From: an uncultured Arenicella sp.
GTDB taxonomy: Bacteria > Pseudomonadota > Gammaproteobacteria > Arenicellales > Arenicellaceae
DNA length: 35,826 bases
NCBI GenBank assembly: GCA_937973905.1
Contig: CALJJR010000135.1
Span: 1 to 35,826, forward strand
Direction: 5' to 3'
Shown: in pieces, positions 8,221-21,536 of the stretch
How the letters are laid out: every line of letters begins with the position of its first letter
Numbering within the stretch: the stretch's first letter is position 1
Program-made: the position numbers and the translations under genes
The notes under the pieces: model-generated
Database searches by the model: none
The model's input: only the letters and a program-made list of their open reading frames with translations
What the model was told of the DNA's origin: nothing

Positions 8221-8640
8221 TTAGCGTTTGTTCTTAAACAGAAAGTTGTCGATTGACAATTTATCACCGCCATAACCAACCAACATGCCAAGTACCAACA
8301 TCCAAATATAATGTTGTGGATCTTGAATGGCATAAACCTGGATTACTATGGTCATGATGAATAGGCCGAGTGCGCCAATTCTGGTGAACAAACCTAGAAT
8401 CAGAAGAATAGGCAGTACCAATTCTCCTGCGGTTGCTAGATAGGCAGCTGGTGTTGGTGGCAGCAAAGGAATAATCCAGTCTTCTTCAAATAGCTCGACG
8501 GTCCCTTCAAAGTCATCGAGCTTCGCCAGACCGGAAACAAAAAAGATGCTGTAGCCCATGTAAATGCGCGCTGCTAAATTGGCAAGTGGCGCGAACGCAG
8601 TAGCGCAAAAATTGCTGAATGCACTGTATAAATTCATCAT
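8221..8640 (-). CDS. bufD: DoxX family membrane protein, bufferin-operon BufD-like
   Basis: This 139-residue protein has about four hydrophobic segments: roughly 20-37, 63-83, 87-104 and 110-124. It also has the DoxX hallmark MGYSIFFVSGLAKLDDF and the GELVLPILLILGLFTRIGAL block. DoxX proteins are inner-membrane proteins that recur beside MNIO (DUF692) operons, where this member is called BufD; a role in redox or export of the modified peptide is suggested but not proven. The start ATG at 8640 is preceded by GGAG. It lies 35 bp after the bufBC stop and 3 bp before gluQ. The family assignment is firm; the BufD name rests on context. Confidence 0.85.
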   Translation of the reverse strand: MMNLYSAFSNFCATAFAPLANLAARIYMGYSIFFVSGLAKLDDFEGTVELFEEDWIIPLLPPTPAAYLATAGELVLPILLILGLFTRIGALGLFIMTIVIQVYAIQDPQHYIWMLVLGMLVGYGGDKLSIDNFLFKNKR

Positions 8641-8675: not shown

Positions 8676-10289
8676 TTAGTTGGTTTGGACTAACAGCCCA
8701 TGCTGGAAAATTAAAGCCAGGGCGGAAGATAGTACTTCTGGTAATAGAGACCCGCTTAATTGCTCAATCGCTTGCAACAAATTTTCACTCTCTGAGATCT
8801 CGGCAAGAAATATGGCATGTTCATTACTAATAATTTGATTGTAGACTGTATACCCCTGCTTAAAGACTAACAGGGAATCTTGACTTTGGCCAAGGTCAAT
8901 CTTGATCTCCTCAGCATAGCTGGGGAGAGACTGACGATGAATTTCATGAATGGGGAAATCGCATTGTTTAAACCACACGCTGTTGTTAAACCTAATCGAT
9001 AGTTGCAGCAGCTCTTCTTGCGGGATATCAACGGGGTTTAGCATGGAGCCAGTTTCTGCGAAATAAGCGCAATGTTGTGCCCATTCGTAGGCGAGTAGGT
9101 CTTGTAAATAAGGCATGCCTTGCAGGCCTTCGAAATGAGGTAGTACTGAGGCAAAGTCGCCACCAAAGTAATAGATATTTCCTTTCTCTGGCGGGTGATC
9201 TTGCACATACTGTTGGCACATTTGTCGAAAGAATTGCTCGCCCACGACACCTTTGGTGGCTGGGTAAACTTCACTTAGATAATCGAGAGTGGCTCCAAAT
9301 GTGTTGTTTTGATATACCCATACGCGAGGGGCGTGTTCGGGTGCCGCGTTCCCCAGTAGTTCGTCTCTGCCAATAACCTGGTCAAGAAACTGGCTTTGTA
9401 ACTCGGCCAATGAATGAATACTCGGCTTAGCCCATTTAGGTGGGCTATTGTCGATTGTTTCCGCATTAGCAATGGTTTCGATCACTGATGCTTGGGCCTT
9501 ATCGGCTTTTTCACATTCCTCAATCAGTACTTCGAAGGCAGGAAAGTCGCTGTCCCATTCAAATATTGTTGGGCGCGTACCATGCAGTTTGAGTGCAAGG
9601 TCATATAAGTGCCAAACCTCTGGGTACACAGGTTGATTATGAGTATCAATCAGCAAGTTCTCTTCGCCAACCTGCATCTCAATATAGCCAGCTAAGTGGT
9701 ATTGTTTGATATGCGACGAATCAATCGCGCGCAGATATTTACTGGATTCGCGGCCCAGATTCGTGGCGCTAACGTGAATATTGTTGATGTCCAGTAGCAA
9801 GCCGCAACCTGTTTCATTGGCGATCGCGTTCATGAACTCGGGCTCATCAATCTGGTATTCATCGAACAACAAGTAGTTTGATGGATTCTCCAATAGAATC
9901 TGACGCTGAAGATAATCCTGCATTTCAGCAATGTGAGTACATACGGTTTCAAACGCTTCTTCTGTTAACGGTAGTGGCAGTAAATCCGGCAAGTGTCGAT
10001 GTGAATAAGCGCTCCAGGCTAGGTGCTCAGAAACGATTATTGGTTCAATATCATCCACCAGCCTTTTCAAATCTGATAGATGGTTTTGGTCGAGTTTGTC
10101 AGCGCGGCCCAAAGACAAACCGACACCATGCAGGCTGATTGGGTAGTGGTCGCGCAGCTCCATTAGTTGTGCCCGGCCAATGGATGGCTGAAAATAATTT
10201 TCTGAATGCGCTTCCAAAAAGCCGAGTCCTGGCTTTTCATTGAGTACTGATTCGAATAACTCTGGGCGGATGCCGAGACCTGATTTCAT
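8676..10289 (-). CDS. bufBC: Fused MNIO (DUF692, BufB) and DUF2063 (BufC) bufferin maturation protein
   Basis: Residues about 1-280 form a DUF692 TIM barrel, the multinuclear non-haem iron oxidase (MNIO) family that converts peptide cysteines into modified forms. Likely iron ligands are His54 (SLHG), Glu88/His89 (SEHLAW), Glu134 (ENPSN), Asp167 and His172 (LLDINNIH), His198 (YHLAG), Asp215/His217 (DTHN) and Glu244 (FEW). After a linker, residues about 292-537 form DUF2063, the BufC partner that binds the precursor. These are normally two adjacent genes; here one frame continues from one into the other without a stop. I chose the ATG at 10289, which gives the usual short N-terminus before GLGIRPE. 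The frame extends to a TTG at 10352. Neither start has a good ribosome site. Confidence 0.9.
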   Translation of the reverse strand: MKSGLGIRPELFESVLNEKPGLGFLEAHSENYFQPSIGRAQLMELRDHYPISLHGVGLSLGRADKLDQNHLSDLKRLVDDIEPIIVSEHLAWSAYSHRHLPDLLPLPLTEEAFETVCTHIAEMQDYLQRQILLENPSNYLLFDEYQIDEPEFMNAIANETGCGLLLDINNIHVSATNLGRESSKYLRAIDSSHIKQYHLAGYIEMQVGEENLLIDTHNQPVYPEVWHLYDLALKLHGTRPTIFEWDSDFPAFEVLIEECEKADKAQASVIETIANAETIDNSPPKWAKPSIHSLAELQSQFLDQVIGRDELLGNAAPEHAPRVWVYQNNTFGATLDYLSEVYPATKGVVGEQFFRQMCQQYVQDHPPEKGNIYYFGGDFASVLPHFEGLQGMPYLQDLLAYEWAQHCAYFAETGSMLNPVDIPQEELLQLSIRFNNSVWFKQCDFPIHEIHRQSLPSYAEEIKIDLGQSQDSLLVFKQGYTVYNQIISNEHAIFLAEISESENLLQAIEQLSGSLLPEVLSSALALIFQHGLLVQTN

Positions 10290-10466
10290 AGAGATGTAAG
10301 TAATTAGCTCGCGCTGGTGTTTAAGACCGGATACAGCGACTTTTTGCTGCAAGAGTTTGGCTCAAAACCTTACTTTATTTCGACTTTGCTGGCGAGAGCC
10401 GCGGAAGAAATTCGGTCATAAGTGGTGGATGTCATGAGCAAATGCCGCGAGTAAAAAAAGATGCAT

Positions 10467-10491
10467 AAAAAAAGGCGGCCGAAGCCGCCTT
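10467..10491 (-). terminator. Rho-independent terminator between bufA and bufBC
   Basis: AAGGCGGC (10472-10479) and GCCGCCTT (10484-10491) pair perfectly over 8 bp. On the minus strand they close a TTCG tetraloop, and a run of seven T follows (10473 down to 10467). It lies 27 bp beyond the bufA stop and about 180 bp before the bufBC start. It should release most bufA transcripts and let only part of transcription continue into the maturation genes. Confidence 0.88.
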
Positions 10492-10517
10492 CCTTAGGGA
10501 AAGAGTCTAGGGGGGGA

Positions 10518-10916
10518 CTAGATGCTCTCACCGTACTTATCAACCAACCGTCCGCCAGCAACTTCACCTTCTTGCTCAGCAACTTTCGAACATGCTTTTG
10601 TCAATTTACGCTCACTCGTGCCTTCAGGAGCTTCAGCGGTTCCGGCACAGATGTTAACAATGTTGCCGCAGGTGCCAGCTGGGACCTTGATCCAAGCGCC
10701 GACCATATTGTCTTCTTTAGCGTTGCCCTGGCAAGAAATGCCGAGAGACTTAGATGCACACGTGTTTTTACCACCTTTAACAATATCAGCGCAGCGCTCG
10801 CTTGAAGCAGCCGTGGCGACTGTAGGAGCAGCCATCAATGCCGCAGCTAATACAGATGTTGCAACAGCCGAACCTAATGTCTTTTGTGAATGTTCAATGA
10901 TGTTTTTAGTTTTCAT
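10518..10916 (-). CDS. bufA: BufA1-type bufferin precursor (DUF2282), extended C-terminus
   Basis: This 132-residue secreted precursor belongs to the DUF2282 family, whose members are ribosomally made periplasmic copper-binding peptides modified on cysteines by an MNIO. A Sec signal peptide (hydrophobic residues 14-34, then ATA-AS) is visible, with cleavage near residue 37. The core carries Cys42, Cys53, Cys62 and Cys83 in the family pattern: a [12 protein letters not shown] block, then [12 protein letters not shown] and VPAGTCGN. Unusually it continues about 45 residues past the last core cysteine, with extra Cys90 and Cys109, whereas most family members end soon after that cysteine. It is followed by a terminator, then bufBC, bufD, gluQ. 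No copper- or sigma-factor site was confirmed upstream. Confidence 0.88.
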
Positions 10917-11047
10917 GGTTATGTCCCGAAAGGTAAAAATTTTGTTAAAAGCTTGCTTAGTATCGAGGGTAAATCGTTCGATATTCGATGTTACACTCCT
11001 AAAAGAACCCGCGTATTAAAAATTCCTTACAACAAAAATCTCCCAAA

Positions 11048-11995
11048 ATGCAAGAATTTGTCAAAGGCAGTGATGTTTTCACAGTCGATGCGCTCTATTA
11101 CGAACCCGAATTGGCTGCAATCCATTTAATTAGAGAGGGTGACGAGCTTGCCATCGTGGATACCGGTACGCAATTCTCCGTTCCCCAAATTAGCTCTGCG
11201 CTGGATGCCATGGGGCTCGGATTTGACGCCGTGCGGTTCATCATTCTAACGCATATACATTTAGATCACGCTGGTGGTGCGAGCGCCTTGATGGCCTTAT
11301 GTGACAATGCCACTTTGGTAGTGCACGCGAAGGGAGCAAGACATATGGCTGAGCCCGGTAAGCTAATTGCCGGCACGATTGCAGTCTATGGTGAAGCCGA
11401 ATTTCGCAAGCTGTATGGTGAGATTACATCGATATCGGCAGAGCGAATTATTTCTCCCGGCGATGGAGATCGATTGTCGATGGGCGCTCGTCACTTTGAA
11501 TTTATTGATTCTCCAGGCCACGCCAATCACCACTTCTGTGTCTTAGATCACAAGACCAACAGCGTGTTTACGGGTGATACGCTTGGCATCGCTTATCAAG
11601 CCTTGCGCGATGGCGACCATGCCTTCGTGATGCCCACGACTACCCCAGTGCAGTTCAACCCCGATGCCCTGCATGCATCCATCGATAAGGTGATGGCTCG
11701 TCAACCTGAAACCTTGTATTACACGCACTACAGCGCACTGCAACCAAACGCGCAGAATATAGCTGGTCTACATGAGCAGATTGACGACTACGTGATGCTC
11801 ACCGGGCAGGCGGCCGAACGGGGTGACGACTTTGAAGCAGTTTTGGCGGCGAGCTTAAAGCAATATGCGGTCAGGCGTGCTCAAAACGAATTGAATAACA
11901 TCGATGATGCAACCATCGAACACTGGGTACAACTTGATTCAACGCTAAGCGCACAGGGTTTAGCGTTTTGGTGGCAGCACAGGCGGGCAGCGTAG
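11048..11995 (+). CDS. Metallo-beta-lactamase-fold hydrolase
   Basis: The 315-residue product has the metal-binding motif HIHLDHAG (THxHxDH), then His in DSPGHANHH, Asp in FTGDTLG and a final His in YYTHYS, a complete set for a two-metal MBL-fold hydrolase. No signal peptide is seen, so it is probably cytosolic. The C-terminal 80 residues are helical. Similar proteins range over thioester, lactone and glyoxalase-II-like activities, and I cannot choose among them. It is divergent from bufA across about 130 bp and ends exactly where the convergent mmsA stop begins. The ATG at 11048 lacks a clear ribosome site. Confidence 0.85.
   Translation: MQEFVKGSDVFTVDALYYEPELAAIHLIREGDELAIVDTGTQFSVPQISSALDAMGLGFDAVRFIILTHIHLDHAGGASALMALCDNATLVVHAKGARHMAEPGKLIAGTIAVYGEAEFRKLYGEITSISAERIISPGDGDRLSMGARHFEFIDSPGHANHHFCVLDHKTNSVFTGDTLGIAYQALRDGDHAFVMPTTTPVQFNPDALHASIDKVMARQPETLYYTHYSALQPNAQNIAGLHEQIDDYVMLTGQAAERGDDFEAVLAASLKQYAVRRAQNELNNIDDATIEHWVQLDSTLSAQGLAFWWQHRRAA
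11941..11967 (+). terminator. Hairpin in the 3' end of the MBL gene, possible weak terminator
   Basis: AACGCTAA (11941-11948) and TTAGCGTT (11960-11967) pair perfectly over 8 bp with an 11-base loop, and a short T-run follows on the plus strand. The MBL gene and the convergent mmsA stop abut with no spacer, so any terminator has to lie inside coding sequence. The T-run is short and the stem has modest GC, so efficiency is doubtful. Confidence 0.3.
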
Positions 11996-19427: not shown

Positions 19428-21536
19428 TTACGCGGCGGCAAGCTCGCTGTTTGATTTTTGCTCACTTACCGTCATATCAATACAGCCGTCGGGTTGTTTA
19501 ACGGCCTGTCGACTGGCGGGCAAAATGATGGTGGTTTCGTCTTCCACTATCGCTGCAGGCCCTACAACGGTTTGCCCATTTAGCATGTCTTCGCGCAGGA
19601 TTACCGACGCCTGTGTAAGCTCGCCTAAAGCCGGGTCGAAAATAGCGCGCTCGCCATCGATATTTGCCGCGCTGGTATCAGATGCAACTGCCACGGGTTC
19701 TACATCATCCACAGGTGTGCTTGCGTTCACTGACCATACGGTGATTTCTACATCCATACCTTCGACCGTGCGACCAAATAATGCCGAATAGTCATGCTCA
19801 AACAGCGCAAGAAATGTTTCGGCATCAGGTGCTAACGCTTGTTCTTTGGTGAGTGAGATTGGGATCTCCCAGCCTTGCCCGCAGTAACGCATGTACACCC
19901 TATATTCGCTGGAAATTGCAGCTTGGGCATCGCATGTTCGTACAAACTGCGTGGCTTCTGTGGCTAGCTCATTCAATAGCGACTTGGTGAGTTCGGCATC
20001 AAACGATGATAGCCGCATATAAACGCTGCGATTGGCTTCGAAACTGAATGGCGCACGTAGAAAACCGATGGCCGAACCCACACCGGCACCGGTGGGAACC
20101 AATAAGCGATCAATACCGAGTTTTTCGCATAAACGGCCGGCGTGCAACGGTGCAGCACCACCAAAAGCGATCATTGTGTATTCTGATAAATCTTCACCGT
20201 TTTCGACCGCATGCACGCGTGCCGCATTGGCCATATTTTCGTCAACAACTTCGACTAAACCATAAGCAGCGGTGGCTGCATCCATGTCGAGTTTGCTGCC
20301 GAGTTCCTTCAATAGTGCTTGTTCTGAATCTTGCGCATTGAGTTGTATCGAGCCACCGGCAAAATTATTCGGGTCGAGTTTGCCGAGTAGCAAGTCGGCA
20401 TCAGTCACGGCCGGACGTTCACCCCCGCGACCGTAGCAAGCAGGGCCTGGTTCGGATCCGGCAGATTCTGGTCCAACACGGATTTGCCGCATTGAGTCAA
20501 CATGCGCTAATGAACCGCCGCCGGCACCGATTTCAACCATGTCGATGACAGGGATGGAGATCGGCATGCCAGAGCCTTTTTTGAAACGGTAAGTGCGTGC
20601 TACTTCAAACACTCGGCTCGTTTGCGGCGTTTGATCGTTGATCAAACAAATCTTAGCCGTGGTGCCGCCCATATCGAATGACAAAACTTTATCAAGGCCA
20701 TAGCGAGCCGCAATATGAGCAGCAAACACTGCGCCGCCTGCCGGGCCGGATTCGACTAATCGAACTGGGAATTCGGCCGCACTTTCCAGTGCGATAATGC
20801 CGCCGCCAGAGTGCACCATGAAAATGTCGCAACCCACTCCTTGTTCGCTTAATCGATCTTTAAGTCGACCCAAGTAGCTTTTCATTAAGGGTTTAATATA
20901 TGCGTTCGCCACCGTTGTATTGAAACGCTCGTATTCACGCATCTGTGGAGATACTTCACTCGACAGTGAAATCATCGCGTCGGGCATTTCCCGTGCCAAT
21001 ACATCATGCACTAGACGTTCGTGCTGATCGTTGAGATAGGAATGCAGAAATCCAACCGCAACACTGTTGTAGCCTGCTTGCTTAATCTCCGCCACCAGTG
21101 ATTCTACGTCGCTCATTTCAAGCGGGATTAAAATATCACCCGACGCGGCCACACGTTCTTTCAATGTGTACCTTTGTTGACGTGGTAACAGCGGCTCTGG
21201 AAGTTTTAGATTCAAGTCGTATTGTTCAAACCGAGACTCGGTGCGCATTTCAATAACATCCCGAAAGCCCTCGGTGGTTATCAATGCAGTTTTAGCGCCG
21301 CGCCGTTCAATTAGTGCGTTGGTCGCAAGCGTGGTGCCGTGAATGATCTGATCAATTTGCTCGGCTCGGATACCCGCTTTTTCACAAACCTGCTGCATGG
21401 CATCAATGATGGCATCTTCCGGAGCGGCATAGGTAGTGAGAACTTTGGTGGAAAACTGCTGATCGGCTTTCTCAAGAACAACATCGGTAAACGTGCCACC
21501 GATATCGACCCCCATGCGGATTGCTGTGCTTTTCAT
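19428..21536 (-). CDS. hyuA: Hydantoinase A / 5-oxoprolinase N-terminal-type subunit
   Basis: This is the ATP-binding subunit partner of HyuB. The 702-residue product begins with MGVDIGGTFTDVVLE (about residues 8-22), the phosphate loop of the acetate/sugar kinase-like fold, then HGTTLATNALIERRGAKTALITTEGFRD. The second nucleotide motif FDMGGTTAKICLI is near residue 280. The FGGAAPLHAGRLCEKLGI block and a C-terminal beta-rich domain complete the expected order. It is the first gene of the minus-strand catabolic run and has about 170 bp upstream before the LysR stop, with two inverted repeats that could be regulatory. Confidence 0.93.
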   Translation of the reverse strand: MKSTAIRMGVDIGGTFTDVVLEKADQQFSTKVLTTYAAPEDAIIDAMQQVCEKAGIRAEQIDQIIHGTTLATNALIERRGAKTALITTEGFRDVIEMRTESRFEQYDLNLKLPEPLLPRQQRYTLKERVAASGDILIPLEMSDVESLVAEIKQAGYNSVAVGFLHSYLNDQHERLVHDVLAREMPDAMISLSSEVSPQMREYERFNTTVANAYIKPLMKSYLGRLKDRLSEQGVGCDIFMVHSGGGIIALESAAEFPVRLVESGPAGGAVFAAHIAARYGLDKVLSFDMGGTTAKICLINDQTPQTSRVFEVARTYRFKKGSGMPISIPVIDMVEIGAGGGSLAHVDSMRQIRVGPESAGSEPGPACYGRGGERPAVTDADLLLGKLDPNNFAGGSIQLNAQDSEQALLKELGSKLDMDAATAAYGLVEVVDENMANAARVHAVENGEDLSEYTMIAFGGAAPLHAGRLCEKLGIDRLLVPTGAGVGSAIGFLRAPFSFEANRSVYMRLSSFDAELTKSLLNELATEATQFVRTCDAQAAISSEYRVYMRYCGQGWEIPISLTKEQALAPDAETFLALFEHDYSALFGRTVEGMDVEITVWSVNASTPVDDVEPVAVASDTSAANIDGERAIFDPALGELTQASVILREDMLNGQTVVGPAAIVEDETTIILPASRQAVKQPDGCIDMTVSEQKSNSELAAA

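Follow-up and report, generated by a model that had tools for sequence, protein, structure and literature searches.

The bufferin operon described here most probably encodes a natural single-chain BufB-BufC maturase, in which the C-terminal half would be docked on the barrel and which would oxidise precursor cysteines for copper binding, probably in two precursors. The operon lies in a 35,826-nucleotide stretch of DNA from an uncultured Arenicella sp. (contig CALJJR010000135.1), referred to below as the window. Judged from its sequence, the fused gene, bufBC, is a natural, lineage-fixed and functional-looking variant of a maturase already known with two subunits, here joined in a single chain; the system as such is of a familiar kind. 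The locus comprises the following features.

8221–8640, minus strand: DoxX membrane protein (PF07681, 74.8 bits)
8676–10289, minus strand: bufBC, fused MNIO-partner coding sequence, 537 residues from the ATG at 10289
8679–9146, minus strand: RRE-type C-terminal portion of the PME-type 1 partner, residues 382–537, assigned by fold match to TglI and NGO1945
9147–9404, minus strand: DUF2063 domain of bufBC, residues 296–381 (PF09836)
9405–9491, minus strand: bufBC linker, residues 267–295, poorly conserved, in frame in 17 of 17 genus copies
9492–10283, minus strand: MNIO (DUF692, BufB) TIM-barrel domain, residues 3–266 (PF05114 and NF050167)
10469–10494, minus strand: terminator-like hairpin followed by Ts, in the bufA-bufBC intergenic region (RNA fold)
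10518–10916, minus strand: bufA, six-cysteine DUF2282 precursor, 132 residues (PF10048, 46.8 bits, cut-off 22.4)
10990–11009, minus strand: upstream element GGTTCTT-N6-GTGTAAC, a weak candidate for a promoter or regulator site

A preliminary description of this DNA had reported one continuous minus-strand frame of at least 537 codons with a full DUF692 domain followed by a full DUF2063 domain, and the profile searches bear this out. In Pfam, PF05114 scores 311.8 bits (cut-off 25) and PF09836 scores 61.8 bits (cut-off 27.2), each over nearly its full length. The N-terminal half is assigned to BufB by the NCBIfam model NF050167 (MNIO_BufB; 332.5 bits, cut-off 310), and the HvfC model NF050145 reaches 49 bits, below its cut-off of 142. 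PF09836 spans part of the partner, the remainder being assigned from the predicted fold. The BufC half is not a separate protein of about 250–260 residues but shares its frame with the MNIO. An in-frame TTG at 10352, upstream of the ATG, defines an alternative gene at 8676–10352 (minus strand, 558 residues), on which Pfam places PF05114 at residues 24–287 and PF09836 at 317–402; alignment with relatives backs the ATG at 10289 better. The flanking genes are also as first described, with the DUF2282 precursor before bufBC (10518–10916) and DoxX after it (8221–8640). The general DoxX model PF07681 recognises the latter protein, and the HvfX model NF050144 gives 53.8 bits against a cut-off of 80. 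The whole window genome contains one MNIO and one DUF2063 match, both inside the window; as this assembly of 231 contigs is 88.75% complete, a further MNIO could be missing.

The fusion recurs throughout the genus. Of 18 Arenicella genomes, that of the window included, 17 bear an MNIO, and in each of the 17 it lies in a single frame of 538–584 residues in which our own HMMs find both halves. The presence of the same open frame with both halves in 17/17 genomes excludes chance or a missed stop. The remaining Arenicella genome (G003), 99% complete, has neither MNIO nor precursor, which shows that members of the genus can do without the system. Overlap of the two open frames in most separate operons, with bufC in the +1 frame relative to bufB in 97 of 126, means that a missed stop or frameshift, through an assembly or annotation error, could in principle join two genes into one. 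For bufBC we consider such an error vanishingly improbable, since the two halves share one uninterrupted frame in 17 separate genome assemblies, and the halves and the linker frame are retained despite nearly saturated synonymous sites. In three close pairs, dN/dS is 0.05–0.11 in both halves where synonymous sites are unsaturated. A stop or frameshift between the domains was looked for and none was found, the junction extending over about 9405–9491, wider than the 9410–9450 given originally.

The linker is the part of bufBC where selection in these three pairs appears relaxed (dN/dS 0.39 in the one unsaturated pair, pN/pS 0.52–0.72), with the frame retained, and it forms the block of lowest pLDDT in the predicted model. 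Its weak conservation and low model confidence would suit a protein cut there by a protease, or a gene that also yields free BufC by internal initiation; the fusion would then be mechanistically meaningless. This reading is improbable, because in 16 of the 17 genus copies the region around the junction offers no in-frame start codon preceded by a Shine-Dalgarno-like site, the single candidate being a weak TTG in the remaining copy (L013), and an independent BufC from an internal start was rejected for those 16 copies. Furthermore, the linkers of the fused proteins span 26–41 residues by our own HMM bounds and every one is in frame, and an artificial, linker-less HvfB-HvfC fusion shows activity and has an apparent size equal to that of the dimer (PMC13419390).

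Outside the genus the fusion looks rare, with at least four cases among the genomes sampled. In the order, PF05114 matches were obtained in 48 of 109 genomes, and no fused frame was seen in the 31 of these outside Arenicella, some of whose matches end at contig edges. The one long frame outside the genus at this level, of 486 residues (G030:C29), was rejected as it has a partial MNIO match and no partner match. The class sample contains PF05114 in 222 of 369 genomes; four are Arenicella, all fused, and at least two of the other 218 are fused as well (G199 and G324). In the phylum sample, the fusion profile matches 145 of 398 genomes and, besides the window's own genome, at least one of 144 is fused (G748). 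A further fusion is carried by the metagenome-assembled genome Proteobacteria bacterium WY3.bin95 (L107). Pfam confirms both domains in all four non-genus fusions, whose totals are lower bounds since the set of related loci comprises 80 of 587. Plasmid records match in 353 of 72,556 cases, and the best 25 of these 353 each hold the match in two pieces rather than in one frame. Two long frames of 668 and 609 residues (L048 and L159) were rejected because they consist of a long open upstream stretch that ends in the MNIO, with no fused partner. At L062 and L160 (one place), L085, L098, L133 and L161–L164, bufB and bufC share a frame with a stop between them, so these were counted as separate; L198, L199, L201 and L202 are absent from the list of fused loci. 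Whether the fusion is the usual form in relatives, a question raised with the preliminary description, thus has two answers: it is usual in the genus (17/17 MNIO-bearing genomes) and, in the samples searched, apparently rare beyond it. In the independent fusion of G199 (L047), Asp occupies the position of Ser247 of the window protein, and the adjoining precursor is rich in Cys-Lys motifs (57.8 bits with our own iterated DUF2282 profile).

The phylogeny proposed together with that survey was computed from 112 of 167 MNIO rows, 21 fused and 91 separate; five rows with no partner were left out and the separate rows were thinned at 72% identity. The 17 Arenicella fusions form one clade (SH-aLRT 99), which adjoins the separate BufB proteins of Hahella and Saccharospirillum (83) and of Emcibacter (96). 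Five changes of state are needed on the tree, which we read as five apparent origins of the fusion, although the count cannot separate gain from loss and the tree comes from a quick search under LG+G4 without mixture. In six near separate operons (L086–L088, L090, L091 and L095), the likely bufC ATG, located by eye, lies 14–17 nucleotides before the end of bufB and in another frame. Over 126 separate loci, which include some duplicates and several same-frame loci fetched for that trait, the bufC open frame is +1 to bufB in 97, +2 in 20 and in the same frame behind one stop in nine. As bufC mostly stands in the +1 frame and overlaps bufB, a frame change within the overlap would be the simplest origin of the Arenicella fusion. 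One Arenicella genome (G017) has, in addition to the fusion, a conventional bufA-bufB-bufC-doxX operon in which B and C are separate genes (L049, on contig G017:C1), and the BufB of this operon groups with Caulobacter in the tree.

The gene order and domain families of the locus are those of known systems. In bufferin operons bufA, bufB and bufC are described as separate genes in conserved order (Antoine et al. 2025, PMC12452194), and the BufB-BufC maturases with a type 1 PME share with bufBC the precursor-MNIO-DUF2063 order, the DoxX protein and the domain families, differing in that B and C are two genes there and one in the window. The few bufferin-domain fusions listed in the available text of Antoine et al. 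do not include MNIO-DUF2063, and a natural fusion of this type was not found in the available portions of PMC13097082, PMC12538549, PMC12710340, PMC12141560, PMC8692599, PMC13174530 and PMC8719888. The fusion is not without precedent: according to Das et al. (2009, PMC2954202), one of 216 DUF2063 proteins in Pfam also has DUF692, at its N-terminus. That protein has the two domains of bufBC in the same order and appears in the accessible part of the paper as a single unnamed instance with no function or distribution given. The domain architecture itself is therefore not new, the pair having been in print since 2009 and the same fusion having been built in a 2026 preprint (PMC13419390).

Complexes of an MNIO with its partner can be weak. 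The preprint (PMC13419390, July 2026) reports that the HvfB-HvfC dimer forms partially and on coexpression only, that the mixed-valent Fe(II)/Fe(III) active state depends on HvfC, and that product yield is markedly higher with an artificial HvfB-HvfC fusion than with the two proteins coexpressed. The artificial protein and bufBC share the domain order and the joining of the MNIO C-terminus to the partner N-terminus in one chain. The former is laboratory-made, linker-less and directed at an EGKCG-type oxazolin precursor, whereas bufBC is natural, has a linker of about 30 residues and belongs with DUF2282 precursors. The suggestion that the fusion fixes a 1:1 ratio, tethers the substrate-binding part and gives a single-chain maturase gains support by analogy, as the artificial protein with this domain order is functional and has the higher activity. 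The preprint singles out MovX and ChrH as exceptions (PMC13419390). MovX resembles bufBC in combining an MNIO and a peptide-binding domain in one chain; it belongs to another RiPP class and has a C-terminal RRE or winged helix fused to it, and DUF2063 is not mentioned for it in the available text (PMC13419390, PMC12452194). The presence of DUF2063 shows that bufBC is not of the MovX type, in which the RRE follows the barrel directly and DUF2063 is lacking.

Structure prediction, which had been proposed as a check on the fusion, yields a single confident fold: AlphaFold2 with 56 rows models the 537 residues at a pLDDT of 95.0 and a pTM of 0.92. Foldseek relates the N-terminal half to 3bww (TMt 0.85), TglH (8hci_B) and MbnB. 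The C-terminal half modelled alone (residues 292–537, pLDDT 93.8) matches TglI (8hci_A, E 1.9e-6, TMt 0.56; 8hi7_A also) and NGO1945 (3dee, E 3.8e-6, TMt 0.71); its match to the RRE protein TbiB1 is insignificant (E 0.84). A PDB sequence search with the C-terminal half as single query found no partner protein, and a profile query gave a weak match to 3dee (E 0.098). At the level of fold, the models thus point to a full-length RRE-type domain after DUF2063. The N-terminal half resembles TglH and the C-terminal half TglI of the same complex (8hci, with 8hi7 as a second structure), so one chain holds what TglHI divides between two. TglHI removes one carbon from a cysteine that has been appended to the C-terminus (PMC12141560).

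The candidate iron ligands noticed in the barrel stand up to comparison. The eleven candidate metal and catalytic residues, H54, H89, E134, D167, N169, N170, H198, D215, H217, E244 and D246, are identical in 20/20 fused rows (17 from the genus and three from outside, L200 being left out) and in 18/18 separate rows. Those among them that are not equated below with residues of HvfB or FonB are candidate ligands. Residues N175, D242 and H244 of HvfB (PMC13419390) would correspond to N169 or N170, D215 and H217, and the FonB base D249 (PMC13097082) to D246; these equivalences were mapped by eye on the 3bww alignment and through the papers rather than from an alignment of the HvfB or FonB sequence itself. 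If Arg15-Arg16 of FonB correspond to the two adjacent Arg residues of 3bww, the second position is Pro9 in bufBC, and the position of FonB Phe250 is Ser247. MNIOs of the DUF2282 type are described as having lost conservation at both the Arg16 and the Phe250 sites, and Cys-Lys MNIOs at the Arg16 site (PMC13097082), and Pro9 and Ser247 of bufBC appear to fit the DUF2282-type pattern.

On these grounds, we infer the chemistry of bufBC, its copper binding, its docking in the cell and its use of both precursors along the following lines. The C-terminal half would dock on the N-terminal barrel in the manner of TglI on TglH, as the models predict, and would bind the signal-peptide end of the precursor. 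The iron centre of the barrel would then oxidise precursor cysteines, which in characterised relatives become 5-thiooxazoles. Oxidation would precede export, and the product would leave by Sec and bind copper in the envelope, the copper role of the system being borrowed from relatives. The fusion may keep the partner always bound, as HvfBC needs for its active Fe(II)/Fe(III) state. Two precursors are probably processed by the enzyme, namely the six-cysteine protein next to it and an orphan four-cysteine protein. The occurrence of the fusion in five sampled lineages suggests that a permanently bound partner is important in nature as well, and bufBC can be seen as the natural counterpart of the laboratory fusion recently built to improve such an enzyme (PMC13419390). 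With natural fusions, structural and kinetic work could start directly from single-chain holoenzymes, and the influence of the partner on the iron centre could be tested in a natural setting.

The precursor encoded next to bufBC belongs to DUF2282, as first stated, but with six cysteines and a long tail it is not of the usual four-cysteine type, which is encoded elsewhere in the genome. BufA contains the four canonical and two extra cysteines, all six invariant in 15/15 aligned rows, and its long conserved tail ends in a 12-residue stretch (letters not shown). Its N-terminus is hydrophobic and closes, by eye, in an A-x-A stretch, a putative Sec signal. A full-length match to the six-cysteine precursor (at least 222 bits) is present in 16 of the 18 Arenicella genomes, as against none of the 91 non-genus genomes of the order, where the best match (51.3 bits) covers the core only; none was found outside the genus in the class sample (best 63.8 bits). 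Within the order and class samples, the six-cysteine form has accordingly been found only in this genus, and it adds a bufferin form for which no description was found in the available parts of the literature.

The six- and four-cysteine precursors stand together at the fusion locus in 10 of 17 genomes, of which G011 was placed there from a gene tail at a contig edge. The six-cysteine precursor alone is present at the locus in six of 17, the window included, and the four-cysteine one alone in G017. The window genome contains two DUF2282 precursors, the four-cysteine one being an orphan on contig C25 (L168:6604–6945). As the only MNIO lies in the window, the fusion would have to act in trans on this orphan, if the latter is modified, subject to the 88.75% completeness of the genome. 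Orphan precursors in G006 and G009 also have four cysteines and are of a different sequence type.

The arrangement in G017, where the gene directly before the fusion is the four-cysteine one and a genome that is 99% complete contains no six-cysteine gene, raises the question of whether the four-cysteine precursor is the true substrate and the adjacent six-cysteine protein an unmodified relative with another role. Buf1 has indeed been described with four conserved cysteines (PMC12452194). We regard this reading as unlikely, because the six-cysteine precursor retains all four canonical cysteines and because, in G002, G005 and G012, nothing besides its gene matches the precursor profile with which these genomes were searched (E 0.001), two of the three being 97–98% complete. 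Service of both precursors is the preferred reading. A bolder proposal, that the single-chain holoenzyme evolved together with the genus-only six-cysteine bufferin (more cysteines being modified, or a second disulfide formed), acts in cis and in trans, and through its permanent assembly allows several scattered precursors, is speculative, and we lean against it.

Between bufA and bufBC, the terminator-like hairpin folds at -22.3 kcal/mol (z -3.06 over a 71-nucleotide stretch), and 2 of 200 shuffled sequences are as good. Our own scan, run without shuffled control, places a similar hairpin after the six-cysteine gene at 11 of 15 loci of the genus and found none at the other four. A terminator consensus scan of the window listed no site, this hairpin included (mean of shuffles 3.3). 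If the hairpin works, it would allow far more precursor than enzyme, and the fusion would then fix the ratio of BufB to BufC and not that of enzyme to substrate. An exact copy of the upstream element GGTTCTT-N6-GTGTAAC precedes bufA in 5 of the 18 Arenicella genomes, and one further copy lies elsewhere. With the pattern reversed as a control there were nearly as many hits (four), so the promoter reading was dropped and nothing is made of the element as a promoter. A sigma-70 scan gave three sites against a shuffle mean of 4.1, which is no excess.

Several neighbouring genes were also annotated. The divergent neighbour at 11048–11995 (plus strand) is a metallo-beta-lactamase-fold hydrolase (PF00753, 80.6 bits); its protein stays under the cut-off of each of the 25 models listed out of 32 in NCBIfam and is thus probably an ordinary hydrolase of that fold. 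The gene at 19428–21536 (minus strand) is near the caprolactamase alpha and acetophenone carboxylase models, its best score being 476 of 1000 bits, far under the cut-offs. Farther downstream of DoxX lie genes for GluQRS (NCBIfam) and a fructosamine kinase family protein (Pfam).
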